Shown here piece after piece: positions 7,201 through 43,800 of a stretch of 64,000 nucleotides of DNA. The DNA lies in NCBI GenBank assembly GCA_026874595.1, contig CM049309.1, positions 73,020,426 to 73,084,425 on the forward strand, read 5' to 3'. Both the position numbers and the translations under genes were made by a program. The DNA is from Sipunculus nudus. Taxonomy: Eukaryota > Annelida > Sipuncula > Golfingiida > Sipunculidae. The notes beneath the pieces were generated by a model. The model was not told the origin of the DNA. It saw only the letters and a program-made list of their open reading frames with translations, and searched no databases. Positions within the stretch are counted from its first letter, which is position 1, and each line of letters begins with the position of its first letter.

Positions 7201-7710
7201 ATTATATATGCACATGCACAGAATTCCTGTAATCCCCACAGAAAATATCCTAAGCTTGTCTGAGAAATCAGAAAGACGGACACACATAGAAACACGCAGC
7301 ATTATTTCTATATTGCAGATTTCATATTAATATAAAAGGTGTATGAAATAATCTATCATCCATTGTTTAACTTTCAATCATCAAATATGGTTTTACAACC
7401 AGTTTCCTCCAGTAACTGCAATATATCTTACAGGTACGAGTTACCTTTTGATCGCCATGACTGGATTGTACAGAGAGGTGACAAGGAGGTGCGTTATATC
7501 ATTGACTATTATGACGGAGGAGATGTTGACAAGAGGACATTTGAGTTTAGTCTGCTAGATGTTAGGCCTGCCATGGATTCATTTGAGGCATGCTGGGATA
7601 GGATGAAAGTTGCGTGGTGGCGATGGACAGTCGGGAATAAACAAAACACAGCTTCTGCATCACAAGAGGTCTCAATGGGGTCAGATGTTAACAAGTCGGA
7701 TAGTTCATGA
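3971..7710 (+). CDS. HCCS: Holocytochrome c-type synthase (cytochrome c haem lyase), five coding exons
   Basis: Coding segments 3971-4261, 5051-5201, 5584-5704, 6753-6836 and 7434-7710 join to 924 nt, 307 residues plus stop, in frame throughout with GT-AG introns. HCCS forms the thioether bonds between haem vinyl groups and the CXXCH cysteines of apocytochrome c, in the mitochondrial intermembrane space. Family signatures: MPPPNQ (98-103), [13 protein letters not shown] (132-144), NNEQAW (171-176), WEALH with His186 (the family's haem-ligand histidine, His154 in human), FSPRARIR (205-212), ELPFDRHDW (218-226) and [11 protein letters not shown] (271-281). Three Cys-Pro haem-regulatory motifs lie at residues 30, 57 and 77. 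The MG start fits N-myristoylation. The protein is longer than human HCCS (268 residues): the N-terminus is looser and about 26 polar residues follow WWRWT. The start at 3971 is the first Met after the acceptor and begins MGAASS. Confidence 0.97.
4546..4900. repeat. Interspersed repeat shared with 23765-23960
   Basis: The stretch TAGTGAAGAGGGTTATGTAG followed by AAATACA, then TTTGTGGTAAGGA and CATGCACATATG reappears in the same order and spacing at 23785-23910 with point changes. It is therefore a dispersed repeat lying in HCCS intron sequence, of unknown class and without clear ends. Confidence 0.5.
5051..5201 (+). CDS. HCCS: HCCS coding exon 2
   Basis: Residues 98-147, starting [10 protein letters not shown] after the acceptor ctctctctag; ends in phase 1 with donor AAAG|GTAAAG. 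Confidence 0.97.
5584..5704 (+). CDS. HCCS: HCCS coding exon 3
   Basis: Residues 148-187 ([14 protein letters not shown] through WEALHA), containing the presumed haem-ligand His186. Acceptor gttgtag, donor GCCAA|GTAAGT. Confidence 0.97.
5705..6752 (+). other. HCCS intron between coding exons 3 and 4
   Basis: 1048 bases between donor and acceptor; no repeat, RNA gene or coding signal recognised. Confidence 0.6.
6753..6836 (+). CDS. HCCS: HCCS coding exon 4
   Basis: Residues 188-215, with [16 protein letters not shown]. Acceptor atccttcag, donor CTAGG|GTGAGT. Relative to vertebrates the CPCGP-type stretch after WEALH is replaced by a KEGHQPQL-like segment. Confidence 0.96.
7434..7710 (+). CDS. 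HCCS: HCCS coding exon 5 (terminal)
   Basis: Residues 216-307 and TGA. Carries [20 protein letters not shown] and the family C-terminal block MKVAWWRWT, then an unconserved Ser/Asn-rich tail ending NKSDSS. Acceptor atcttacag. Confidence 0.97.
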
Positions 7711-10772: not shown

Positions 10773-10971
10773 TCACGTGCTGGCAGCCTGCTGCTGTTGT
10801 TGTTGCTGTTGTTGCTGCTGCTGGACAGCCTGCTGGGCTGTTCCTGATTCCTCCTTAAAGTGATGGGAGATGAACCTCAGCCTCATCTGTAAAGCCGGCC
10901 TCAGCTGACAGATCACCTTCTCCACCTCGTTCCTCACCGCGTTACCCACAAATATGTACTTGATGTGATAG
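10773..10971 (-). CDS. MED23: MED23 exon w30 (terminal, poly-Gln tail)
   Basis: LYHIKYIFVGNAVRNEVEKV through PALQMRLRFISHHF, then QQAV, about twelve Gln (mixed CAG/CAA) and AAST before TGA. The acceptor atttacag is preceded by a U12-like branch site CCTTGAC. The open frame upstream of 10971 is intron. Confidence 0.95.
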
Positions 10972-13900
10972 CTGTAAATTAGGTCAAGGTCATCTCGTGT
11001 ACTCATCATGTTCAAGTAACGGTTATACGTATACCCGGGCTAAGCCTACGTTGGGAAATTACCACAGGTAACCAAATGTATGGGAACATAAAATGTGCAA
11101 TGATATGAAATGTATTAGTATGTACTTTTTTATTTTATAAAGTCACCCGCCAGCCTGTGATCTTTGAGAGTACAGTCGTGCATATTGGTGCAACCAGAAT
11201 GTTTCACACTGTCTCCACCAGTTGTTTCTGTTTATCAAAGAGTTTATCACTTGGAACTCTCTCCCCCCCCCCCCCCCCCCCGCCATTTTTGAGTATTCTC
11301 GGTAGCCCCTTGGCTCTAATGTACCTTTGGCTCCAGAATATGCTCTAAATTTGTGCATTCCCAATGCCGCTGGATGCTGGCACAATTTAATAAGTATAAA
11401 TTCCGCAATAATCTTTATCCTGAAGAATCATTTTGACATGAATTGTGGGCATTTATATAAAAAAACTTTTGATATTATTATTAGCACTATCATATGGTTT
11501 TTGGTCTGACTGGATGGTGTAAGGTGTATGATGGCAAAGAGTTGTAGAGTGAAACTGAACATTGGTAAAGTTCAGGTTAGATTGAGCAGCCTTTGGCATA
11601 AACTTTATTGTTGTGCAGTAAAACTATCATTATGCAGGATAAGTACATGACCACATGCATGTGTGGTCAATGATTCCTCTGCCATATTTCTTAATTATTG
11701 TAGTAAATGACATACAGACTGTGTCCCTTAACGTTGTTATTGTTTCCATGGGCAGAGATGTGGCCTTGACCACATCTCTGTCAAACTACTGTGCCCATGA
11801 TGGATTAGAGGTTAGAATACAAATTTGGCTTGGGAAGTCTAAGGAGTGTAATGGAGTGACATCAGATGAATAACAGAACAATTATCTACCAAAGGGTCCC
11901 TACATCTCTATAACCTCTTTTCATGTGGCCTTACACCAAATTCTTTAGTCAATAAAGGGACAATTCTTTTAGTTGGTACATTTTATGTACAATGATTCAA
12001 ACATATACAAGCAACTAAATATTACTTCATGCAGGAGTACCCCAAGGGTCCATACTGGGACCCCTATTATTTTTAATATTCATCAACGACATCACAGAAA
12101 ACATAGTGAGCAATATTAGATTATTCGCTGATGATACTATGTTATATCTCACCATAGAAAATCCATCATTAGCAGAAAAAATATTAAACAATGACTTGGA
12201 TAAAATATTTAAATGGTCCACAAAATGGTTAGTCACTTTTAACGCAAAGAAAACCAAATCCTTAATATTTTCATCTAAATCATCTAAAACTTCTCACCCA
12301 GACCTATATATAAATGGCATTAAAATAGATAAATTTAACAGTCACAAACATCTAGGATTAACATTCAGAAAGGACTGTAAATGGAATGATCACATAGAAA
12401 ATATAAAAGCCAAAGCAAACTCTAAAGTATTAATACTAAGCAAACTGAAATATATGCTTGATAGGAAAACTCTTGAAAACATATACTTCACTTATATAAG
12501 GCCAATATTGGAATATAGCAATGTTGTGTGGTGTAACTGCACACAAGAGCAAAGTGATACATTGGAGGCAGTGCAGCTACAAGCTGCCAGGATTGTGACA
12601 GGCTGTGTCAGAGGAACTAGCCATGCCAAACTATACAAAGAAACAGGCTGGCCCCAATTAAAAAAAACGTAGGGAAAACTCTGTGGTCATCCAACTACAC
12701 AAAATGTTAAAACAAGAAACTCCAAAGTACCTTTACCTTCTATTACCTCCACCAAGAAACTATACCTTTAATACAAGGTCAACTGCTCTACTCAATATAC
12801 AAAACATTTTCTCTAGAACAGAGCTGTACTACAACTCATTCCTACCAAAATCTATACGACTATGGAACAAACTAGATGATAGACTTAAACACTGCCAGAC
12901 CAGTAAATTGCTAAAAAATAATATATCAAGAGAAATTGCTAAAAACAAACCACCTAAATATTATAATTCAGGATCAAGAAGAGCCCAGATAATTCACACA
13001 CGGCTAAGTACACAGTGCAGTAATCTAAACCATGATTTATATAGAAGACACTTATCAAACGATTAAAAATGCCAATGTGGATTCGAAACAGAAAACGCAG
13101 AACATTACCTACTGCAGTGTCACCTCCATGTCAACTCTAGAAGTAAACATCTCCCCCTAAATATACCCTTAGAAGAACTTCTTTATGGAAATCCCTATGC
13201 AAGCCACATCAGAAATGAAGAAATTTTTGAAGCATTATCTTCATACATGGAAGACACAAAAAGGTTCAAAATATAATATTCCCCACCATATTTTCCCCTA
13301 AAAGTGATATTCATAATTCAGTCATAAAATTAGTCCTAATATACTAGGACCTGAAACAAAAATGAAACAAAAACAATTTTAAATACTTGTCTTCCAAATA
13401 ATTAATTAAATTTAAAAAAAAAAAGAACAAATGAACAATTTCTTCCATTCTTACTAAGTAAATTTACAACTTGCCTTTCACTTACTTTCACTTACCCAAC
13501 ATCCATACCACCCTACCTCACCTAAACTCACTCACATCCAAACATTCTGAATACTGCCATTGTATATTGTTAATGGAAACATTCGGGAGAGAGTCGAGGT
13601 AAGCTTTAAGTAGCTTGCACTTAATCCCACTGATGCTTGTATTATGTGATTTATATGTGCATATTCAGTATCAATAAAATATCTAAAACAAAAACAACTA
13701 GACATTTCTTGGCACCGCAGGTGCCAGAGTATCCCCAGACATAGTAGGCCCCTCTCCTACAAGAACAGACCCCCATTTTTAGCAGCATATACTGACACTT
13801 GGCATATTTATTGTTTATTCCATCTAACGATCCACAATCATGTTGAAGATGTTGGTCCTGTGACCTTGATCTTTTTAAAGATGTGTCCTGTGACCTTGAC

Positions 13901-16800
13901 CTTTGATCTCACAACCCCAAAATCAATTTGGGTCTTGCTTTTCCAATGGGACATATGCAAGTCAAGTTTGAAATCTATACATCAATAAACAGGAATTATC
14001 ATCCAGAAACTAATTTTTGGACAGATGGCTCCTGTGACCTTCACCTTTGACCTTGTGACCTCAAAATTGATAGTGTTCTTCCTCTCTTGGCAGGAGAACT
14101 ATATGTGCAAGATGAAAGATATGAGATGAAATGTTTGGCTGAAAATGCATCCACATCTTTTTAAAGATGTGTCCTGTGACCTTGACCTTTGACCTCATGA
14201 CCCCAAAATCAATTTTGGTCTTACTTTTCCAATGGGACATATAAAAGTCAAGTTTGATCTCCATACATAAATAAAAGCAGGAATTATCATCCAGAAACTA
14301 ATTTTTGGACATATGGCTCCTGTGACCTTCATCTTTGACCTTGTGACCTCAAAATTGATAGGGGTCTTCCACTCTTGGCAGGTGAACTATATGTGCAAGA
14401 GGAAAGGTCTGAGATGAATTGATTGGCTGAAAATGCATCCACAATCTTTTTAAAGAGGTTTCCTGTGACCTTGACCTTTGACCTCATGACCCCAAAATCA
14501 ATTTGGGTCTTGCTTTTCTAATGGGTCAATAACAAAGCCAAGTTTGAAATCCATACATCAGTAAAAGATGGAATTATCATCCAGAAACTAATTTTTGGAC
14601 AGATGGCTCCTGTGACCTTCACCTTTGACCTTGTGACCTCAAAATTGATAGGGTTCTTCCTCTCTTGGCAGGTGAACTATATGTGCAAGATGAAAGATCT
14701 AAGATGAAATGTTTGGCTGAAAATGCATCCACATCTTTTTAAAGATGTGACCTTGACCTTTGACCTCATGACCCCAAAATCAATTTAGGTCTTGCTTTTC
14801 CAATAGGTCAAATACAAGTCAAGTTTGAAATCCAAACATCAATAAAAGAAGTAATTATCATCCAGAAACTAATTTTTGGACAGATGGCTCCTGTGACCTT
14901 CACCTTTGACCTTGTGACCTCAAAATTGACAGGGTTCTTCCTCTCTTGGCAGGTGAACTATATGTGCAAGATGAAAGATCTGAGATGAAATGTTTGGCTG
15001 AAAATGCATCCACATCTTTTTAAAGATGTGTCCTGTGACCTTGACCTTTGACCTCATGACCCCAAAATCAATTTGGGTCTTGCTTTTCCAATGGGACATA
15101 TGCAAGTCAAGTTTGAAATCCATACATCAATAAAAGCAGGAATTATCATCCAGAAACTAATTTTTGGACATATGGCTCCTGTGACCTTCACCTTTGACCT
15201 TGTGACCTCAAAATTGACAGGGTTCTTCCTCTCTTGGCAGGTGAACTATATGTGCAAGATGAAAGATCTGAAATGAAATGTTTGGCTGAAAATGCATCCA
15301 CATCTTTTTAAAGATGTGTCTTGTGACCTTGACCTTTGACCTCATGACCTCAAAATCAATTTGGGTCTTGCTTTTCCAATGGGACATATATAAGTCAAGT
15401 TTGAAATCCATACATCAATAAAAGCAGGAATTATCATCCAGAAACTAATTTTTGGACATATGGCTCCTGTGACCTTCACCTTTGACCTTGTGACCTCAAA
15501 ATTGATAGGGGTCTTCCACTCTTGGCATGTGAACTATATGTGCAAGATGAAAGATCTGAGATGAATTGTTTGGCTGAAAATGCATCCACAATCTTTTTAA
15601 GGAGGTTTCCTGTGACCTTGACCTTTGACCTCATGACCCCAAAATCAATTTGGGTCTTGCTTTTTCAATGGGACATATATAAGTCAATTTTGAAATCCAT
15701 ACATCAATAAAAGCAGGAATTATCATCCAGAAACTAATTTTTGGACATATGGCTCCTGTGACCTTCACCTTTGACCTTGTGACCTCAAAATTGATAGGGG
15801 TCTTCCACTCTTGGCATGTGAACTATATGTGCAAGATGAAAGATCTGAGATGAATTGTTTGGCTGAAAATGCATCCACAATCTTTTTAAAGAGGTTTCCT
15901 GTGACCTTGACCTTTGACCTCATGACCCCAAAATCAATTTGGGTCTTGCTTTTTCAATGGGACATATATAAGTCAATTTTGAAATCATTACATCAATAAA
16001 AGCAGGAATTATCATCCAGAAACTAATTTTTGGACAGATAGCTCCTGTGGGCTTGACCTTTGACCTTGTGACCCCAAAATTTATATGGATCATCCATTAT
16101 TGGCAAGTGAGCTATATATTCAAGATGGAAGACCTGGGATGAAAGTTTGGCTTAAAATGCATCCACAGTACCTTTTAAAATGCCAGTCCAGTGACCTTGA
16201 CCTTTGACCTCATGACCCTAGAACCTATAGGGTTCTTACTTTAGTGGTGGGCCATACATAAGTCATGTTTGAAATCCATATGGCTATCAACACCATAAGA
16301 GGTATGTGATTTTCACCATATATGGCAATATTCAAGGTCAAGGCCACTATCATAGGAAAGGTCATGACCCCAATTTAAATAAGCATCATCCCATAACCCA
16401 TACCTATGTATATGCATAATATAAAATAAATCTGTCCATTAGTTTTTGACTTATAATGCTCACAGTGCTGTAAGGTGGCAATTTTGGGGGTATTAATCGG
16501 CACGAAAACAAGTAAAGAATAATAGGTGGCGCCACCAGTTTCTGGAACATGACAACCCTATCCATGATCTTCCATCAACTTGATTTTGGGATAAATCCAT
16601 GCAAGATTTCTTGAGATATTAAAGAATTTGTCCGATTTTCCCCAAAATTGGACCTATTCAAGGTCAAGGACACTCTCCTAGTAAAGGTCATGACCTCATT
16701 TTAAATAGGCGTCGTCCTCTTACCCATATCTATACATATACCAAGTTTGGTAAAGTTCCGTGAAATATTTTTTGGGTTATCGCGCCAACAAGATTCATAT

Positions 16801-16855
<55 letters not shown>

Positions 16856-19800
16856 GACCGGTATGAAAACATAGTATCCCCCGACTTTGTCTGGGGATAC
16901 AATAACTAAATATTACACCCTTTAAGCTAATATGATAAACATTATGAGAACTTTAATAGTATGTACAGCAGGTCAGTTTCGAATAGGGGGTTTGAGATGG
17001 TCAGTTTGGAAAAGGGGGTTTGAGATGGTCAGTTTGACTTAGGGGTTTTCAGAAACAGTCACTGGAAAATGATGACATGATGTTTTAGAAGGATACAGAA
17101 AGTCGCTGATCGTGTCCATGTGGTTCAGATGTGGACAAGCTTTGTCCACTAGCTGTAGCATATGGTACAGTTCCACGGTAACCTGAAACGATAAAAACCA
17201 TGTGATCGCAACAGATGTACCATACAGATAGATGTAAAGTAGTCTAGAAATCAATTTTATATAGAAATTAGATTGGTATTTATAAGAAAATGCCTCTTCT
17301 ATAGCTCAATCTCAGTCATTTTTCAACATGTTATTGACATTATTCAAATATAATATACATATTCTCTTGAGAACTTTATGGTATAAAATGATCTTAAAGA
17401 TTTAATACCACCACTACCTAGCTCCCTCTGAAAAATATATATAAACAGACATATTGTTAGTGCATATGTGTGTGGGGGGGGGGGGGGTGTCATGCATGTA
17501 TAGCCTGATAAATATGCACTTCCCATAATTTCCTGCACTATAATCATGATATATACTAGGTTACTCTCCATAATCATAGCCATGGTGAAAACTAGACATT
17601 TCATGGCGCCGCAGATGCCACAGTCAGGGTTTGTGCGTGGTCTTACAAAGTCATACGAAGTCTTACTTTTCATTTTGCAAAAATAAGGCCTAAAAAGTCT
17701 TACTTTTCTTACATTTTAGAGGCTAAGTCTTACAAAAGTCTTACTTTTTGTTTCACAGAAACTTAAATAAAATTTTGAATTGTGAAGGAGGCAAATAAAT
17801 GGATACCATAAACCTGAAAGTAGCTAATTTGTCAAAGCTTGTTCCCGTATTTAACTGCATTTCACACATCATCTGCATGTTCAGACTACCATGGGTCTCA
17901 TGATCATGGGGGCACCTGAGGAGTATTTTCAATGCGGACAACAGAATAAATACGAATCAGAAGACACGTGTTCACAAGTTTCAGTGGTGTGAAAGGGGAC
18001 TTAAAAGTTGTGCGCCAGTTCATCACAAATTTTTATGATAATTTCCTCTGCTGTGCACTTTCCCTAAATCATGTAATCTCTGCAGTTTCTGCATGTCAGT
18101 GGATACGCAATAACTTTGTTGGAAATTGAAAGTAACAACGCGCTGTGTGTTTGTCGACAATGCAAATAAAGTAGAAGAAATTCCAGAAACTATGACTTAA
18201 TCATGAAAGAGTTTGGTCCTAAAATATCACTTGAGCATCTTTTTTTCAGTTTCATGTTTGCTAGGCAAGTTATGGATATTTATGTATGAATATTGACAGC
18301 ATTTAAAAAGATAATTTGCTTGACTCAGGCACACAAGGATAGCATGGCTCGTACCAATAAAAGGTGTTTGAAAGTGTGATAGGTATATTTGGACACATTC
18401 TTCAAACTGGAAGTTTAAATAAATATTTGTGTGTGAGTTGGAGTACAGAAGATGCTTCAGTGATTTCTAAACCAGCTAGCATTTATATAACCCTGTATAC
18501 CAGAACATGGCATAAACTGACGTGCATTTCTGTAACTCTGCATGAATTAGGCTCGTCCTGCTCGTCGACATGCCTGTCGAGTTTGTCCCTATAGAAGTTT
18601 AAACATTTGAATATTTACGTCGATGGTCTTGTGAAATGTTACGTTGACATATTAACCTCCTTTGTGGTCAAGGACACATATGCATTATGACCACTGTATA
18701 ATTCACAATTAATTTAATTTATGGTTGACTGTTAAAATCAGATACAATGAATTATATTTTGTCAAATTTACAGCATTAAAGTATGAGCTAGTTCAGGCTG
18801 CTTCGAAAAAATGGAGCGCGGGAAAGTTCAAATGTGTTACCATTTTGTGTGTAGGTCTAGATCGGCGAGCTCACACTGCATGCATATATCTAGCAAGTTA
18901 TAAGTCTGTGCTGTAAAATATGTTTGAAATATTTGAGCATTGAAATAACGAGCTGTAATTGCTCCGCAGACTCTCATTTTAATTTTTGTATGCCAATAAA
19001 TGCATTCAAATTAGATCATTTTTAATTACATATTGCAATGCAGAAGGAGCATATATCGGTGTCAGCAATGACTGGCCTATAGGCTATAACACCAAATACT
19101 GCATGTATCATAAACTCGGTATTTCCAAAATATGCATGACCATCAAGAAATCTTTATTTTATCGTAAAATAATTTTTTATCATATTGCTCTCACATATCA
19201 GAACTCCTTTGCAAATGGATGATACGGTCTGCCGATGTCAATGTTGTCCAACTACATTTTTCCAAACGTTTCCCTGTAAATTTTTGAACGTCCAGGCACA
19301 CCTGCTCTCTTTAGAAATGTCTCGCTCTTGGAGGGGACACGTGGTTTTTGCAGTAGATCGTGCTAATACAGAGGTATTACGAAAATATAAATGAACATTA
19401 AGAAATCTATATTTTGTTGATGTAAATTGATTTTTATCCTATTGCTCTCGCATTTCAGAACATGTTATGCCCACATACATGTATTACGGTCTGCCCGATG
19501 TAAACGATGTCAGTGTTATCCAACTGCATTTTGCCACACGTATCCCCGTGAATTTTGGAACGTCCAAGCTCGCTTGCTCTCTTTACAAATGCCCCACTCT
19601 TTTGCGGGGATACCTGTGGCTTTGCAGTAGATTGCGCTAATACAGCAGGATATCCAACGGTTTCAAAGTGGACACTGCTTAAACTTGCGGCTTACACCTC
19701 ACAGTAATGCGTCAGCAAATATGTCATTGTATCAAACTTACTGCAGCATTTTTTTTGGCGGATATTCTTTGAACTCCAGTGAAGGAAGTTATCTGAACAT

Positions 19801-22800: not shown

Positions 22801-25800
22801 TCTCCCGAGGAATCTGTGGATACCTGTCACATAGCAGTAAACATAACATTACACATACAGTCATTTACACTGTGATTTAAACTGCATAACATTCAGTATT
22901 TACACTTTAAAACTAGAATACTGACAGATCAGGAAGGGGGCATAGACTTCCAGTGTGGGCTGAGTGATGCTTGAAAAAATATAAAGGATCTGATTACATG
23001 CAGAGACAAAGGGAACTGACCCCAACCAGTATCTAAACGTCTGAACCAAGATGTTAAGGTTTGATCAGTGATAGTCATGAATGAAGGAGTAGAGTATCCC
23101 TAGCAACAGAGGCTCATTACATCAGATGTATTCAACTGTCAGCCTAGTCAGTAAAATAATCAGTATGATTGTCCTGTGACCTTGACCTTTGAACTTGTCT
23201 AAATCAATATGGTTTTTCCCCTATTGTTAGGTAATCCAAAAGTGAAAGAGTTTTGATGAAACATTTACAATGCCTCCACAAACTTTTTAAAGATGTAGGT
23301 AATGTGACCTACACCTGTGAATTAATGAACCCAACATCTTTGTTTTGTTTTAGTGGTGGCCAATATATATGTCAAGTTTGAAATCCATATGTCAATCCAA
23401 ACTGGAGTTATCATCTGGAAATGAACTTGTGGACAGATGGCTCCTGTGACCTTGACCTTTGACTGTAAGACCCAAAAATCCATAGGGCAACAAAAACAGG
23501 GACAGCTACATTTTTTTTTTATTTGCTGAAATTTAGTAACATCTATTTTAACATCTAATTACTTTTAGTTATAAATCTGAAATGTATTACTAAAGTAAGA
23601 ATTGAATGGAGAACTGAATCGTAGGTAAAGAATCATGAACTGAATCAATTATAAGGGCCCTCACAGTTCACAGGCCTATACCTGAAGGCTGAGTAATGAT
23701 ATATTATTATAATGATAAATTACATTCAGCAGGAAGTTGTACTGGGGCTTCTACAAACACTGTCATGGTTAGTGTTAATGTAGTGAAGAGGGTGATGTAG
23801 TCTGTTCAAATACACTGGATTAGAATTTTTTAAGGCAAATTACACTATCATGGGCGTCTTTGTGGTAAGGATTTCATGGTATAAGTAATATTTGTTAGCA
23901 TGCACATATGAAATGTAAAAAGGTGTTTCCTTGAAATGTAACAAAATTAGATTTTAAACTTTGACAGCTGAAACAAAGTGTTCCTTGCCGTCCCACATTG
24001 CCTAAACAGAACTTTGTTTCAAGGAGAAACAACCTTCAGCAAAATGGTGACATTGTTTAACAACTCCAGAGTACAAAATGTATAATCAATTTTCTTGTCA
24101 GGTTGTTTCCTCTGACACTCACCCTTTCATGATGACATCAAGCAGAGCTCCGCCAACCACCTGACTGCTGATTGGCAGAGCCATGAGCTCGATGCATGTA
24201 GCGTGGAGTGTGTGAGCAGCAGCATTAGGAAACTCGTTGAACCTCCAATCAATGCTGAAAATGGTGGATGGCACCTTCCCACACATGAGTGATTAAGTTA
24301 AGGCAAATAACACAGAAGAATCCAAATAAAATAAAATATAACACAAGGAATTATTATCTACAATTAAATACATAATAATCAAATACACCTGTTTATGTAT
24401 GCTGTGATATTTATAAAGAAAGGAACAATTCTTACAATATTGTGTTAAAATATGTTACATTTTCTTAGTACTAGGAAGTGTGAAATAAATCTAACCTACA
24501 TTTTATTTAATGATCATCATATAATTGTATCCGCCAAAACAGTTTTGCTGATACTATGTTTTCAGCTGCACGCCGCCGCCGCGTAGGTGTCCGGAGAACT
24601 CCTCCGTAACCACTGGGCGGAATTTTACGAAACCCGGGATTATGTTCAGGTCACATGTGAACTGCTGCGCCCCGATTTTGTTTTGACCTCTGACCTTTCC
24701 TCTGGGCTCTGCGTCCGTTTGTGCATCTGTTTCCACACATAAACCCACATATCTCGGGAACCCTTTGACCGATCAGGAAAATTTGTTTGCACAAATGTAG
24801 CCCTTGGAGAGCTTTATAACATACACAAAAAATGGTGGCGCCACCTGCAACCATGTTTGCACAGTGTCCATCTGTTCGTCTGCCTTGGGCTAAAATCACT
24901 CATATCTCTGCTGTGACTAGACTAATTCACCTGAAATTTGGCATGTGTAAACATCCTGGATAGCTTTTTTTGATTTTATGACAGGTGGCGCCACCTACAT
25001 TCACATTTACGCTGCAGACATCCAAGCTCATATCTCGGGAACTGTTTGACCGATCAGGAAAATTTTTTTGCACAAATGTAGCCCTTGGAGAGCTTTATAA
25101 CATACACAAAAAATGGTGGCGCCACCTGCAACCATGTTTGCACAGTGTCCATCTGTTCGTCTGCCTTGGGTTAAAATCACTCATATCTCTGCAGTGACTT
25201 GACTAATTCACCTGAAATTCGGCATGCGTATACATCCTGGATAGCTTTTTTGATTTTATGACAGGTGGCGCCACCTACATTCACGTTTACGCTGCAGACA
25301 TCCAAGCTCATATCTTGGGAACCGTTTGACCAATTGGGCCAAAATTTTGCATGTGTATAGATCTCACATACCTCTTTTTCATACGCAAAACTGGTGGCGC
25401 CACCTGCAGCCATTTTTTGCACAGCTCCTGTCTGTTTGTCTGCCATGGGATAAAATCACTCATATCTCGGCAGTGGTTTGACATATCTGCCTAAAATTTT
25501 GCAGGTTTATACGTCCCCGACAGCTCTCTTGATTTTATGACAGGTGGCGCCACCTGCATTCTAGTTTATGCAGCAGACATCCAAGCTCATATCTTGGGAA
25601 CCGTTTGACCGATTGGGCCAAAGTTTTGCATGTGTATAGTTCTCACATAGCTCTTTATCATATGCAAAACTGGTGGCGTTACCTGCAACCATTTTTGCTC
25701 AGCGTCCATCTGATTGTCTGCCACGGGCTAAAATCACTCATATACATGTAGTGGTTTGACTTATCTGCCTTAAATTTTGCATATGTATACAACTTGGATG

Positions 25801-28800
25801 GCTTTCTGGATTTTGTGGTAGGGGGGGCAACCTACATACACAATTTGGCTGCAGACATCCATGCTAATATGCAACACTCTATTTCCCCTTGCCACTCAAT
25901 CCATGCCTCACTTCACCCGTTCCACTCTGATTTAGGCGGATACACGTAGTCACTTGTCGACTACCCATATTCTAGTTACCTTATACCTGTCATAAGCCCA
26001 TATCTAATTTAAAGAATTAGCTACACAAGTAAAATTTGCTGGTCGCAGTGCCTGCTTTTCAACGATCACATACAGATACTATTACATCAGTTTCTAAAAA
26101 TTCTCTTGTACAAGAGATTGGATTATGGTAAAGAACCAAACATACATTGAACAACACCTTGATATTGGAAATATTTGGATGTACATGTACTAGTGCAACC
26201 AAAGCTGTTAAAAATTCAATGATCAAACTATAAAATAGGAATTTTTTGTTCAGTCCTGTTGGACTTTGCAAAAGGTTCTTCAGGCTGATGGTTTTGTCAT
26301 TGCTCTGTTTAAAATCGAGTCTGATAAAAGATATTGTTGACTAGTCTTCCCACAAGCTGAACATAGTAACTGGAATCAGGATTCCAGGCTGGATCCATTG
26401 GTGTTCTTGTCTGGTAGCGTAAATAGTCCTTTGTTAAACACCAATCGGCTGGATGGACGTCCTTCAGGGAACCTACAAAATGTCAAACATTTTACAAATC
26501 TTCATATTCCATTAGAGATTTTACAACCATATATCATGCATGCTTTGAAATAAACAAAGCAAAAGAGTCCACCAAACTTTTCACAGATTTTATCATCAAG
26601 TATCCAGAATGTTACCTTGTAAAGCTAATTCTGAAAACCACAAATTCAACAACCCCTAAAATCCTTTCGAAGACAAAACCTCTGAATTTTTAAAGTAAAT
26701 CTCCAGTTTTTACATATAATACTATTTATAAAATATTAAATTAATGAATTATATACAACTAAATCTGTCTGTTTGTCATTAACTATGATAACATGACATT
26801 CAGGTCTTTTTAAAATAAACTGATAGGGGCCTGTGAGTCATGAAATAAGTCATTACAGAACACTCATTCCAATGGTCGGATTAAAATATTTGCTGTGTGG
26901 TAGTATCTGACATCATAGGTTTATATGGTCATGTTTCATTTGCTAAGTAATGAAAACAAATTTTGTTACACAAAATAAGTGGTTTATATCCTGGCGGTGA
27001 GAAATGGTTTTAAGCAGTTTTGGCCTCCACAGTTTTTGCTGTTAAGCCCTTATGACAGACAGAGAGACAAACTTCCTGAGTACAACCAGCCTTGTTATTA
27101 ATAACTGCTGCATGGAAACATGTATGTCAGCCATAAAGGTAATATTTGTCATTTTTTCCCAACAGAATAATGTCACTCTGTGTCATTCCTCAGGAAAATG
27201 ACAGTTTACCAAGCAGATGAAAATAAAAAAAGTACTGCAAGATTACGCAAGATCAATTTTTTTTATCACTAGACCTGAAATGCCCTAGCATACAGAGGTT
27301 CTTTACCTTTGACAGAATTAAATTCCAAGCTATATTACTGGCAGGTAGGAGCATGGTGCTAGGCCATGTCTTTCAGAGGTTACCCTTCTTTATGCTTTGC
27401 TTAGTATGTGTACAACTGTAGATTCAGAGAATTTTGTGGGTCTAAGATGTCATTGATTTGACCTGGAATACTATTGGTGGGATAGTGGATTAATCATTCA
27501 TTAGCAGTTTCTTGTGTTTTTCTTGTTACTGAATTGATGACTTTATTCTGACTGTATATCTTGTAAGTCCATCATGCTGAAATCTTTGTTTTACCCAATT
27601 CCAGGTAGAATTTAATACCCTTTTTCAATAATGAGATTTATTCATTATTCATTTATTTATTCAGTAATTTATTGATCTATAAAATGGCTATATCATTTTT
27701 CTATACATTTTTTATTTAGCCTTATCAATAGTTCATTGCTACCCTACATGGTGATGTAGGCACACTCACTGTCATTAATAAATGCAGAGTGATGGCATTT
27801 AAAAATTTTATAATGAATGAAATGATTGTGGGGTTTTTAACTCTGTGGGAACAAGTAAATTTGTGGAATTACTGTCCCCAGCTCTTGGATCTTGTTGTCT
27901 TTCATGCTTGATAAGCAACCTAAATAATGAAATGTGGAGAAAACCTTGAGGGTATATTGAAAACTTAAACAGCTGCACTATGACATGTGGAGACATCTGC
28001 AGGTGAACAAAAAAACTAAAACACATTGAGAAATAGGACCAAAATCCACTTTGACATGTGAAGACATCTGCAGGTGAACATAAAAACTAGAACACATTGA
28101 GAAATTGGACCAAAATTTGACAATTTTGTTTTTGAGCTGGAGATTTATAGAGATTATTTTTCAGATAGACACTCCAAAACCAATCACAACCAAATGAAAT
28201 ACCTGACGGATGGACAGACAGAGTGACAGACAGACAGCAAGAAGCCAAATCTGATCCCAATCAAGGTAAGCATGAGAGCAATCACTGACCCAATTTTGCA
28301 TGAAATCAGATAGTATTTAGGAAAGTTATCACACAGAAACCAAAATATGACGGATGGACAGACAAAGTGACAGACAGATAGACAGAAGCCAGACACTCCA
28401 AATCCGATCCCAACCAAGGTAAGCATGAGAGCAATCACTGACCAAATTTTGAATGGAATGGGATAAATAAAGGAATGTTATCACATGTAAACTAAAACCT
28501 GACGGATGGACAGACAGAGTGACAGACAGACAGAAGCCAGACACTCCAAAACCAATCCCAACCAAGGTAAGCATGAGAGCAATCACTGACCCAAATCTGA
28601 ATGAAATTGGGTAAAATTTAGGAGAGTTATTGCAAGAAAACAAAAAAACCTGACGGACGGGGAGAGAGACAGACAGACAGACAAACCCAAATCAATGTTC
28701 CGAGGATGCAGGGAACAAAATAAATTATCCATGAAAGTAAAACCGGAAGAACAATTCAGAACGCACTGTATGTCTAAATCAGGTGACTCTCTTTGCTACA

Positions 28801-31800
28801 AAATGTACAAGACCAACATCTCATGGTGGATACTGTTCTGGGAAAATTTATCTATTATGGTCACAAATAAATGTGTTAGGCCAAAAAAAATTAAATAGGT
28901 ATGGATCTCGGGCAATTTTTTTTTTTAAATCACTGTAGGCAGGTGGTATTTTATTTTTACCCTTTTTTTGTGTGTTTCAATCAAAATTTCATATGATCAG
29001 GGAAAAGCATGAAGATAACAGGTTTTTTTTGCTAAACAGGTACAAGCACTACATAACAAAGGAAACTCTGTCAAAATTGTATTATTTTATCTTTTTGAAT
29101 GATAAAAATCAAAATATAAATGTTTGATGTGGGGGGGTGGGTTAAAATTGATGTGGGCAGTGCCTAAGAACCAAACATTTTATTTTTTTTTGGCCTTATC
29201 CTTGTGGCTGAAAAATTTTGTTATTCTAAACAAACATTCTGGGTCAACATTAACTTCGATAACACCATTAAGGTTAACTTCTTGCCCAGGGAAAGTAAAG
29301 GGTCCAGAAAATGGTGGTAGGCCGACCAAAAGAGGGTACCTACTTGTCTCACCAGGAAAGTGGGTCCAACATAAACCTTTAAACAAGGACCTCAATCTTA
29401 ACTGATTAAGTTAGCCATTTTCTTTCTTGGAGAAATGAAATCATCTTGCAATACCTCCATCTTAAATTACCTGTCTATTTATCTGTGGAATTATTTTTAA
29501 CAACAAACATTTGTGCATGTTTAACTTAGTAAAATAATCATGTGGGATACTCTATGTATTTGTGGCTGTGATCACTGATTTTTTTAGGACAAGCAAAATT
29601 TCAGGGAGGGCTAGTGGAAGTTATATATTACTTGCCCTACTGGCTAAGTACTTTCAAAAGTTAATGTTGAGTCCTGCATTCCTGTGACTTTATGATCTAC
29701 TGGGTCACTACCATCCAGTCTCTTACCTATGACAGCTCCCACCAGTTTCTTCTTCAGTGTATGACGATCTCTCAGGTTTTTCTCATAGTAGAACAAGGTG
29801 TTGAACAGGTATGATAAAGGACGATCTATAAAAACAAAGGATCACTATAATAATCTAAAGAAGTATAAAACTGGATATATATTTAATTCTAGGGTTTCTG
29901 CCATACAAACATATCTTGATGCTGTTGCAGCAATGGGTGCTTAAATACAGGTTATTTCTTTGTATGATGTTGTGACTAATGAATGAAAAGGGGTTGGTAA
30001 TGGCAATTTCAGAAACAATTTATAATGGTTTCACCGACAATTGGCTGAGTTTTTGGAGCAAAACCAGTTGCTTTCATCAGCAATACAAAGGAATAAATTC
30101 AGACATAACCAATTAGTATCTAGTTTTATGGCTTTTTGTAATTATTGCTCAGTATGATAATTTATCTAAATTCAATGAGTACGTTCAAATACATCTTTGG
30201 AAGAAAATAACACATATAAAATTATCACAGTATAAATAGATTTTCACTGGAGTATACAGGTAAAAATAAGTATATGGCTTGATATAAAAATAATTTAGCT
30301 GTTATTCTGAAAAGAATATTGTGAGAACACTATAACACTTGCCGTGGAACTTGTAAAGGCCTCCATATATGTCTAGTAGTGTTTCCAGGTAGTTATGAAA
30401 ACGAGGCAGCTCAATGAATCGGTGGATCACAATATCAAACACCTTGAAAACAGCAGTATCAAGATGTGAAAGACAAAATGGTGAGGTTCAGCTGGCTGAG
30501 ATAAGATATGATCATAACATGTATATACTGGTAATACATATAATACATACCCTTGCATGGTACTGATAAATGACTGTTTACAGGCATGATCCAAGGAGTA
30601 TAAAAATACAGCTATCACTGGTTAATTCTCTCTCTTTATTATATATATATATATATTTATTTATATATATATATATACACACACACAAATATATATGTAG
30701 GTGTTTGATCTGTGTTTGCATGTGGTTGCAATTTTGGATCGAAATACCTGCTGGCTAAGTACACGTGTGGTTAAATATCCTATGGTATTAACAGCTAGTC
30801 TACAGTGAACTTCCAATGAGTGAGGGCTTACAGTGTGAGGTCCTTACAAAATAACGTTGTTAAATACATGTGTAGATTGAAGTGGTGAACTAAATATATA
30901 GTATTCTTAGAACAATTATCATTTTTTTCAAAAGCACAAAGGGAGAAAATTTCAGCAATAATAATAACAGCAATCCATGATGGGTGCTGCAACTCAATGT
31001 TTAAGATCTCTAATTTCTGTGAATTACAATATGCAATTCTAGATCAACTCACTGGCAAGAAACGCAAGCACACATTGTCAAAATAGATAGGGAGGTATTG
31101 TTTCTGTGATGCTGATGACAAGTCCTGTAGCCCCTCATAGTACAGCTTCTCCGGGAATTTCTGTAAAACATTGTAAATATGTGAATACACAAAAAGATAT
31201 GGAGATATGAACAGGTCTCTCCAATAATGTAATCTCTGCAGAAATGTTAGCTTAATGACACTTCTATTTTAAAGGTTTAACTATGTTTTTCTGAATCTTA
31301 TATATATATATATAAATAATACTTTTTCTAATTATTCAAACCCTTTGAAACATTTTCAAATTTCTTCTTATTTTCAACTGCTGAAGGCATTTTGTGTAAC
31401 AGAGTAAAGTGAAGTGATCAAGAGCCTGTATACAGGGTAACAGATGATGACAAAGTCACGGTAAACATTATTTCAGAAAATGAACAACAAAATTATTTAG
31501 AATTATAACTGGATGGCCTGAAGTGACTGTGCACACATTATGTAGAAGCCTGTATGGAGAGGCAAATTCAGACATGAGCAAATCTTTTAGCTTAAGTAAG
31601 TTGTCGACCTTATATTTCAAGCCCCATTAAATGTTGTGGATGTCAGGTTACCTGTATACAGGAACAAGAAAAATCCCTAACAACATATTTTTCAGATATA
31701 AGTGTACACCTTAAAGACTTAAGATATTTTTGCCATGAAGGCTCTGGCAGGGTTTGAACAATCACCTGCTACTCACAAAGTCCAATGCTTTAATCATTAT

Positions 31801-37800: not shown

Positions 37801-40800
37801 CCCTCATGTTTGTTTGTTTATTTTTCACAAGGGTTATGTAATAACTAACAAAAAATGTTCTTGGGAAGACTCTGATAGCCTTTGGTGAGGACAAATGTAC
37901 AGATCCAGGAGGACTGTTTAGCAATGTCTTAAGGTATGTGCCTTTCTAGTTTTTATTCACTGAAATTAAAAATGTAAAATGTGCATTCATTGTAAAACAA
38001 ACATCAAAGATACTGGAAAAGTATTTATTGCCAGATCATTGGTTTTGTATTTAAAACTGTTTTGAAAATTTTATTATGTATTTTGATACGTACCACAGGA
38101 AGAGTGGGGGTGTGCCTGTTGCTGAGAACTGGGTGACTAAATCACTCTCACTCAACATGCCTAAAACATAAAGCAATATTCAGAGTTAGCAGATTCAGTC
38201 ACATAGAGTAAATAAAAAGGGCTATGGAATTCAGTGTCACATGATAATAAGAACTATTATAGTGTATAGAGGCACATTCAAGTTATTAGTTCCATATAAT
38301 GTTAAAATATACACTAAGAAGTGTCTGGCATTCAAGATACACAAAACCATTCTTTCATCATGTGACTTGCAGAATACAGGTCATTATGATTCATACTTGA
38401 GTATAAGCTTTAATTTCAAGAAAATAGCAAGAACTGAGAGAATGTAATGTTTTTCAGTAAAATGGTAAGGATTTGTTTCCTGCTAACATCCCAGTTCTCT
38501 TTGAATGCCAGCCCCTATCTGAACATTTCAAGGAAAGCTCAATCTGTTCAGATAATTTGTCATCTGGATAAAATGAATATAGGATAAAACATAATGAAAA
38601 TTAAAAAAACTGACACTTTATACATTATTTTACATGGATTTACAAATAGTCATTATAACACACTCTCTGTGACTCAGATGGTGGTGATAGGGAAGAAACC
38701 AAGAACACAGAGAAAACCACCAGCCTAAGACCCGCTGCTACAAGTTACAACCCACTCTCATAGCCACACTGAAGAAACTAGGGACCCAGGGGTCTCGACG
38801 CTCAGCTGTATTTGTCTTGAAGGATATTTTTTTTAAAGAAATTTTTAGAATGAAGGTCCTGTGACCTTAACCAATGACCTTGTGACCAAAAAATCTGAGA
38901 ATTTATTATACTTAAATTTGCAGCATTTAGATTATTGTAACAATCTGCTAAAAAATATGGGTCCAGTGACCTTGACCTCTTACCAGGTAACCTCAAAATC
39001 TACAGATTTCTCCCACTTTTGGCATGTTAGCTATGTGTGAAAGATGGACAGTTTGGGATGAAAAGTTTGATTTACATTGCATCCACAATCATTTTAAAGA
39101 TATGGCTCCTGTGACCTTCCCCTTTGACCTCTGGACCCTGAAAATCAAAATGTTTCTTACTTAAGTGGTGGGTCATTAATGAATCAAGTTTTAAGCCCAA
39201 TCTGTCTACCGAAAGCAGAATTATCAACGATGAACTAGGTTTGTGAATGGATGAGAACGTGACTTTGACCTTTGACCCTATGACCCCAAATAAAAAAGAA
39301 TCTTCCCCTATTGGCAGGTGAGTAATATTTTGAAGATGGAAGGTTTGTGGTGAAAAGTTTGGCTTGAAATGCATACACATTCCTTATAAAGAAATGGGTC
39401 CTTTGACCTTGATTTTTTACCTTTGGGCCCTAAAATCAACAGGATTATTACATTAATTGTGAGCAATATATAAGTTAAGTTTGAAACCAATGTGTCAGAC
39501 TAAACTGAAGTTATCATCTGGAAACTAATTTGTGAACAGATGGCCCCTGTGACCTTGACCTTTGGACCCCAAATTCATTAATGCTCTCCCTATACTGGCA
39601 AGTCAGCAAAATGAGCAAGACAGAAAATTTGGGATAAAAAGCTTGGCTTAAAATGCAGCCATAATCTTTGTAAAGCGAGTCTTGTGACCTTGACCTTTGA
39701 CCTCATGACCCAAAAAATCATAAAGGTTCTTTCTTTAGTGGTGGGCCAGGTGTAAGTCATGTTTGAAATCCATATTTCAATCCAACCTGGAGTTATCATC
39801 TGGAAACAAATTTGTGTGTGGATGGACGGATGGACAGACAGACACACAGATGAACAGACAGACAGACAGGGTGATTACTATAGGGCATCTATTTTTATAG
39901 TAATATAGTAATTTTATAGTAAAAAAAAAATAAAACTAGATGTGTCGGAATGACACAAATGCCCCCTCCTGGGGCAAATTAGAAACCTTTGTAAAATTTT
40001 GAAACATTTTTTAAGTTCAGGAGGTGTCGTATGGTCAAAAGTAGGTCAAGAAGGGCAGAATGCAAACTCCATCTGTAACGGGTCATTATCAAGCAACACA
40101 CCAAAAATCATGCAGTATATGCAGGCATTGTGAAAAAAAGTCCATACATGTGCATTTTCCATAAAAATTTCTGTCTTTCATGAAATTTTCTATGTTTAGG
40201 AGCTGTAAAACAATCAAAAGTAGGTCAACCGGGACAAAACGCGGACTCAATCTGTAACTGTCATTATCTGCCCAAACTATCATTATCTGCCCACACATAA
40301 AAAATCAGGGTGGTATCTGCAGGCAATGGGGAAAAAAGTCAGTACATATGCATTTGTTATGAAAATTTCTATTTTTCATGAAACTTTCTATGTTCAGGAG
40401 CAGGCAAATGGTCAAAAGTAGGTCAACTGGGACAAAACATGAACTTGATCTGTAACTGGTCATTATCTGCCCACACACAAAAAATCAGGCCTGTATCTGC
40501 AGGCACTGTGAAAAAAAGTCCATACATGTGCACTTTTTTATGAAATTTTCTATGTTAGAGCACCGTCAAACGGTCAAAAGTAGGTCAACTGGGACAAAAC
40601 GTGAACTTGATCTGTATCTGGTCATTATCTGCCCACACACCAAAAATCAGGCCAATATCTGCTGGTATTGCGAAGAAAAGTCTGTACAAGTGTATTTGTC
40701 ATGAAAATTTATATTTTACATGAAATTTTCTAAGTTCAGGAGCGGTAAAACAGCAAAAGTAGGTCAACTGAAACGAGAACTCGATCTGTAACTGGTCAAT

Positions 40801-43800
40801 ATCTGCCCACACACCAAAAATCAGGCCAATATCTGCAGGCATTGCGAAAAAAAATCCGTACATGTGTATTTGTCATGAAATTTCATATTTTTCATGAAAT
40901 TTTCTATGTTCAGGAGCCGCAAAACGGTCAAAAGTAGGTCAACCGGGACAAAACGCGAACCTTGATCTATAACTGGTCTATATCTGCACACACAAAAAAT
41001 CAGGCCAATATCTGCAGGCATTGCGAAAAAAAGTCCGTACATGTGTATTTGTCATGAAAATTTCTATTTTTTACGAAATTTTCTAAGTTAAAGAGGCGTA
41101 AAACTTTCAAAAGTAGGTCACCCGGGATGAAACGTGAACTCAATCTGTAACTGGTCATTATCTGCCCACACACCAAAAATCAGGCCAATATCTGCAGGCA
41201 TTGCAAAAAAAAGTCCGTACATGTGTATTTGTCATGAAAATTTCTATTTTTCATGAAATTTTCTAAGTTTAGGAGCTGTAAAACGGTCAAAATTAGGTCA
41301 ACCAGGACGAAACGTGAACTCGATCTGTAACTGATCCATATCTGCCAACACACCAAAAATCAGGCCAATATTTGCAAGCATTGCGAAAAAAAGTCTGTAC
41401 AACTGTTTGATTTCGGAATGACGGAAGGACGGAATGACGGACATGGGTAAAACTATATATATATATAAAAATATTCGTAAAAATTACAGAAAATACAGTT
41501 GGCGCCACCACTTTTCCAGAACTGACAATACTAGTCATGGTCAATATTCAAGGCAAGTTTCATGACAATCCATGCATTTATTATCCAGATATTGGCGGTT
41601 TTGTATCAAATTTTTTATTATTCTGGGGGTTATTTACAAGCCCCATAGCTTGAATATATATGGGTCACAGTGACCTAATATCAGGTTTTCAAGGAGAGTT
41701 TTTATTGACCTCCCTGGATGTTCACTTAGAAGTTTCTAGGACCAGCAGTGACGATTTGTGCCCTGTTAACGGACGGCTGGACGACCAGACTCAGGCCCCA
41801 TTCCTATACCTCAGTTCACTTATAGTCAGCTGAGCTAAAACCCAGGTCACACCAGTGAAGACAGCTGAGCAGTTCACTCCTTGATTGGTTAACGGGATTT
41901 TCAGAAGGAGGTTCAAGTTAATTCAAGCTTTTGTGTACAAAACAAAAATTCAGTTCTGTACCATGTTGTTCATAAACAAAAATTGATAAAGGGATAAAGA
42001 CTTGATTCTTACTTTTCCATTTACGATGCTTTGTCTCTACACCGACTCATATTTCATTACTGATTCTTACTTTTCCATTTACGATGCTTTGTCTCTACAC
42101 TGATTTTGAGCTCCATCTTCTCCTCTCGCTGGATGGGGTGCATCTCGTAGAAGTCCCTTATTGGAGCTGGGAAGCAGCTGAGCGTGTGAGAGGACCAGCT
42201 GTGTGGAGTCTGGTTCATCACCTTAACCAGCATCTCCTTCACCCAGCTGCTGGAGTAGCTCTCAGATCCTGAAGAATGGAAATTATAATGAAACAAGGGA
42301 CCCATGGGTCACGGCGCTCAGCTGATTGTGACAGTAATTAATGCATCACCATAGATTTTTTGAAGTTGCAATAAAAATACTATCCTCAGTGCTCAGGAAC
42401 TAGGGCTCAATGACTGGGGGGGGGGGGGGAGAGTTACAACACCTTTGGATATAAATACAGAATACGGAATTAAATTCAATGGTGCTTACAGGGACTGGTG
42501 GGAGTTACAGCACCTCTGCATATAGGTAAAGGAAAAAAATTTAATTTAAATTAAATTATTTTTCAATATTTAAAAACAGGCAGAGAGATGGAAAACAAAG
42601 CAAATAACTTTAATTTCCATTCTACTGAGACAAGAAAATAATGAACAAATATTTGTATTAGATCCTATTTTTTCTTTTGTTAAGTCATTTTTTTTAAGTT
42701 TATAAATTTTACTTTATATTTACAGTAAATCATATATATCTGAATATTTAAATTGATTCACAAATCTAAATTGCATCAACATTTATACTTAATTTAGTAA
42801 GGTAACATCACATTATGCACACAGATAATTTTCTTTTTTAAGATGACTTATAGTCAGCTGAGCTTAAAAAAAATTATTTATAAAAAAAAAAAATTGTTAG
42901 TGTATATAGCAGCCTCCAATCTTATAACTAGCAAACAAGGCTTACAGGCCAAATGTGAACCTGTGCATTGGTTTATACACCAGGTATAATGCTTCAATGC
43001 TGGGCCTTTATTTTTCAAGTAGGCCTGCATGTCTTGTATACAACAAAGGTATCAGAGATGTATACATATGCCCAATTTCAGGCTGATATCCCCTGAGAAA
43101 TAAGCAGGGACTTACACTGTGCAAAAATTATTGTAGGTGGTGCCACATGTCTTGTTAATGACAAAGCTTTACAATATGTATTAATGTGCCCTAATTCAGG
43201 CTGGTATATCAAATTCCTCTGGAGAAATACACAGGCACATACACTGTGTAAAAGTCATTGTAGGTAGTGACACCTGTCTTGTGAATGAGAAAGCCATCTA
43301 AGACACATAGACAGGTCAAAATATTAGGCCAATACATGAAACTTCTCGAGTTAGGTGAGAAAGGCAGTTGCCTCCAGTGAACTGAGACAAATTGCTGGCT
43401 CAAGCTACAGCACTGAGAGAACTCTTGACCTGCACCTGGCTAGAATGAGTGAATTTCTGACCTGTACCTGGCTGCAATGAGTGAACTCCTGACTTGTTGC
43501 ATAATCTGACACAGTTGGCAGTCTGCCAAAGCTATAAATAGAATCCAGCTACTGCACTGAGTGAACTCTTGACCTATAACTGGCTGCACTGAGTGAACTC
43601 TTGACCTGTTGCCTAATCTGATACAGTTGCCAGTCTGCCAAAGCTATAAATAGATCCAGGCTGACCTATGGCCTGTTGCAAATTCTGAAATAGTTGGCAG
43701 TTTGTCAATCTATTTAACCTGAAATCTAGTGGCGTGATGTTATAGATGCTGATAAACTGGTGCCAGGCTAGATGTAATTGCTTCACACAGCTAACATATA

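Follow-up and report, generated by a model that had tools for sequence, protein, structure and literature searches.

U12-type introns of the AT-AC subtype begin with a 5′ splice site of consensus ATATCCTTT, with C at +5, and use a branch site of consensus TTCCTTRAY that lies close to the acceptor. Their share among U12-type introns differs between animals: the animal rows of the survey table in PMC7367187 run from 8 to 47%, honeybee standing at 8.6%, mouse at 25%, human at 26% and Drosophila at 47%, and the part of another survey that bears on the question gives ~22% for human and 24% for mouse (PMC6717393). The first-pass annotation of the locus described here had called AT-AC introns a small minority even of minor-spliceosome introns; they are indeed the minority subtype, but according to these table rows their share is not always small. 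With 22-26% of human U12-type introns ending in AT-AC, a case in MED23 is not very surprising. Molluscs, like some other protostomes, are described as comparatively rich in minor introns (PMC10639083, in its relevant passages). Supplementary tables aside, the relevant report that our literature search on MED23 (CRSP3) and minor introns yielded is a preprint, a portion of which places mouse Med23 among the minor-intron genes that are mis-spliced in U11-null limbs (PMC13192996).

We analysed a window of 64,000 nucleotides from Sipunculus nudus (contig CM049309.1), in which all coordinates below are given. Its minus strand carries MED23, whose exons are recognised from ~60.5 kb down to 10.8 kb; the first match, at ~60.5 kb, scores 24.6 bits, marginally below the Pfam cut-off of 25 bits, and the match at 58.4 kb is above the cut-off. 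Other reading frames that were searched gave no match. Beyond the last MED23 exon, a partial gene for cytochrome c/c1 heme lyase is found at 7336-7707 on the plus strand (Pfam Cyto_heme_lyase, E 3.7e-20); it matches the end of the profile and heads towards MED23.

The AT-AC intron occupies 24289..26334 on the minus strand (2046 nt, phase 1). It is preceded by the exon at 26335..26472, which matches PDB MED23 sequences and the Pfam Med23 profile, includes SLKDVHPADW...YVQLVGRLVN followed by the first base of an isoleucine codon, and has a hand-read start at a listed acceptor. It is followed by the exon at 24122..24288, which reads (I)MCGKVPSTIFSIDWRFNEFPN and whose 3′ end, at GTGAGT, was judged by eye to within a base or two. 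Both ends can be read directly from the minus strand: upstream, GTC AAC A is followed by ATATCTTTTATC, and downstream, TTTGCCTTAACTTAATCAC is followed by TC ATG TGT GGG AAG, so that the exon ending in GRLVN plus A stops at 26335 and the next one opens with TC-ATG-TGT (IMCGK). The boundaries proposed in the first-pass annotation were thus exact to the base. The 5′ splice site ATATCTTTT lies at 26326..26334, the branch-site motif TGCCTTAAC at 24297..24305 and the 3′ splice site AC, placed by direct reading and by join enumeration, at 24289..24290, all on the minus strand. Within the intron, Tandem Repeats Finder delimits an array of 4.0 copies of a 279-nt unit (24748..25870). The core of this array, GCAGGTGGCGCCACC, recurs with at most 2 mismatches at 16522-16539, 41495 and 44327, outside the array, and may therefore belong to a dispersed repeat family.

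Protein continuity, along with motif strength, is the main support for these ends. Three different MED23 sequences of the PDB, which we take to be human and mouse chains, are matched by the joined product of 101 aa with E values of 3.8e-31 to 7.4e-31, and the Pfam Med23 profile PF11573 with an E value of 4.6e-37. In all three PDB sequences the junction is gap-free, LVNIMCGK standing against LVDTMAGK, and the intron falls at their residue T1078; that GRLVN would join IMCGK without gap or shift, as had been predicted, is borne out by this comparison. We also enumerated the GT-AG, GC-AG and AT-AC joins around both exons and obtained 59 that are free of stop codons. The AT-AC join scores highest (292) and is the only one to keep the gap-free length. 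The runner-up (280) uses an AT at 26325 that does not resemble a U12 donor, and it lengthens the product by three residues. None of the 59 stop-free joins is a GT-AG or GC-AG pair that preserves the length of the protein.

Two of these joins correspond to a different reading, in which the intron would be an ordinary U2-type GT-AG intron with other ends and MED23 would be shorter. Its donor would be the GT at 26341 or at 26353, each paired with the AG before 24274, which would become the first exon base. Both joins are in frame and stop-free, with U2 sums of ~0.4 and 6.1, respectively, but they drop 7 and 11 aligned residues, which align gap-free to the MED23 chains, and their alignment scores fall to 261, the best of any GT-AG join, and 238. 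As the U2 sum of 26353/24274 is within the range of the gene's other introns, this join is ruled out by the protein and not by splice-site strength alone. A GT-AG intron would, moreover, leave it to coincidence that a donor motif and a branch motif of U12 character stand precisely where the homology breaks, and we consider it highly improbable. The two GTs nonetheless mean that the earlier statement that the upstream exon has no in-phase GT donor was slightly too strong; what holds is that using either of them costs residues.

The motifs at the two ends of the AT-AC intron were scored with approximate U12 and U2 matrices. By these matrices the donor scores 9.6 and the branch motif 12.37, and each value is reached by 7 of the ~128,000 positions on both strands, ATATCTTTT itself being counted among the donors. 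Allowing 31 donor and 18 branch positions, we calculated by hand that ~2e-6 joint matches would be expected by chance. Compared with the donor consensus, ATATCTTTT has a single mismatch, T instead of C at +6, and its +5 position is C. The branch A of TGCCTTAAC is located 10 nt before the exon, one nucleotide short of the optimum of 11-13 nt quoted in a passage of PMC6717393. Both departures from consensus have a parallel in the human UFD1 U12-type intron, GTATCTTTTT...GTTGCCTTGAC, which in the relevant part of PMC7367187 shares the T at +6 and the G in TTGCCTT. Phase 1 also agrees with the corresponding section of PMC10639083, which describes minor introns as biased against phase 0.

The donor and branch scores of the AT-AC intron sum to ~22.3, while the U12 sums of ten other MED23 introns range from −21.6 to −9.8 and their U2 sums from 3.5 to 22.3. 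A caution comes from another MED23 intron, where by chance an AT-AC pair that was rejected, 30319/29799, attained 11.3 as its U12 sum: moderate U12 sums do arise, and that of the AT-AC intron is double. Together, the C at +5 and the branch motif mark the AT-AC intron as U12-type. Terminal dinucleotides do not fix the class of an intron on their own, as the part of PMC2831892 on this point makes clear, but removal by the major spliceosome, as a U2-type AT-AC intron like those of sodium-channel genes, is scarcely credible here, with C at +5 where the required G is absent, TGCCTTAAC near the acceptor and, by eye, no long pyrimidine tract 5′ of it.

Eleven further MED23 introns look U2-type, ten of them GT-AG and one GC-AG. 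Ten (nine GT-AG and the GC-AG) were obtained by join enumeration, the top-scoring join being taken each time, and the GT-AG intron at 29726..26473 was assigned by hand; in all, 12 junctions were assigned through enumeration. The survey covers MED23 apart from the introns of its N-terminal exons, the introns between human residue 1132 and the penultimate exon, and the introns on either side of residues 485-535, 798-806 and 917-958. The GC-AG intron runs from 30342 to 29826 on the minus strand and has the donor ACG/GCAAGTGTT.

The donor score of the AT-AC intron is attained at five positions of the minus strand (26334, 17096, 38827, 31200 and 21367) and at two plus-strand sites. At three of the minus-strand sites, protein homology shows no exon end: 38827 falls between one exon that ends at 42071 and another that starts at 38160, 31200 is upstream of a MED23-like stretch that includes PEKLYYEGL...QYLPIYFDNVCLRFLP, and 21367 is likewise upstream of an exon, the one that reads YLRDRLKPVV. 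They are taken as chance matches.

The donor at 17096, GTATCCTTCT, outscores every other minus-strand position as a U12 donor and sits where the MED23 match of the penultimate exon stops. It opens the last MED23 intron, at 10972..17096 on the minus strand (6125 nt, phase 2), a second candidate U12-type intron, of the GT-AG subtype, which the first-pass annotation had missed. Its branch motif GACCTTGAC is a weaker match (8.7) whose A is 13 nt away from the last exon. The U12 sum of this intron is 22.4 against a U2 sum of ~0.9 (donor −3.2, acceptor 4.1). Among 57 joins free of stop codons, its own ranks first (209 vs 189). It aligns SDFLYHIKYIF with the CDFLYHMKYMF of three different MED23 sequences in the PDB (best E 1e-22), no gap interrupting this stretch, and the intron falls in the Leu codon of DFLYHMKYMF. 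The GTATCCTTN donor, the branch motif and the gap-free join are those of a U12-type GT-AG intron.

The two exons that flank this intron are the penultimate one at 17097..17182 on the minus strand (VTVELYHML...ISDFL, start judged by eye) and the last one at 10773..10971 on the same strand, which reads (L)YHIKYIFVGN and continues through a glutamine-rich tail to the stop. The polyglutamine run at the end of MED23 (10773-10840, minus strand) is encoded by CAG and CAA repeats. On the opposite strand, the last intron contains a reverse-transcriptase fragment at 12019-12669 (plus strand; Pfam RVT_1, E 2.5e-12). We also considered a duplicate of the MED23 C-terminus at ~17.1-17.4 kb, where profile ranges overlap and the hit is below the Pfam cut-off. 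It was rejected because the exon there appears to begin at 17182, past stop codons and TTTCAG; the simplest account of the overlap is that the alignment extends weakly beyond the exon.

Altogether, 26334..24289 and the last intron are very probably two U12-type introns of an animal MED23, the former belonging to the AT-AC and the latter to the GT-AG subtype. For the AT-AC intron, this assignment relies mainly on protein continuity and motif strength, and the U12-type reading of the first-pass annotation stands on the continuity of the protein, the C at +5, the near-consensus branch motif and the lack of any length-keeping GT-AG or GC-AG alternative among the enumerated joins. From what is established of the minor spliceosome, U11 would base-pair with ATATCTTTT and U12 with the branch region of TGCCTTAAC, and U4atac/U6atac together with U5 would catalyse removal of the segment from A26334 to C24289. 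Excision would rebuild the isoleucine codon A/TC inside the conserved LVN-I-MCGK. By Rfam gathering scores, no U11, U12, U4atac or U6atac is present in the 64-kb window, a span too small to say much.

The AT-AC intron provides a clear worked case, in a conserved Mediator gene, that gene prediction restricted to GT-AG would mis-cut. The second U12-type intron offers a concrete comparison between this animal and vertebrates for the loss or conversion of minor introns. One may speculate that MED23 of this lineage needs the minor spliceosome twice, once for the AT-AC and once for the GT-AG intron, and that one of the two is possibly absent or converted in vertebrates, although we regard this as unlikely. 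If it were true, the production of full-length MED23, and hence Mediator activity, could be limited by minor-spliceosome activity more than in mouse. General understanding is not changed by these introns, since the AT-AC subtype has been described before, as has a minor intron of the mouse gene.

Among the known systems, the sodium-channel U2-type AT-AC introns share the AT-AC termini with the MED23 intron; they differ in having G at +5, as stated in the part of PMC2831892 that deals with them, where MED23 has C together with a U12 branch motif. The likeness to the minor intron of mouse Med23 is at the level of the gene only, so far as the pertinent portion of PMC13192996 describes it. With the U12-type AT-AC introns of animals, the MED23 intron shares a donor of the ATATCYTTT kind, a CCTTAAC branch near the acceptor, the AC end and a phase other than 0; the T at +6 and the G in the branch motif are the only differences that we noticed. 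Both MED23 introns look ordinary for their class, the one as a U12-type AT-AC intron and the other as a U12-type GT-AG intron.
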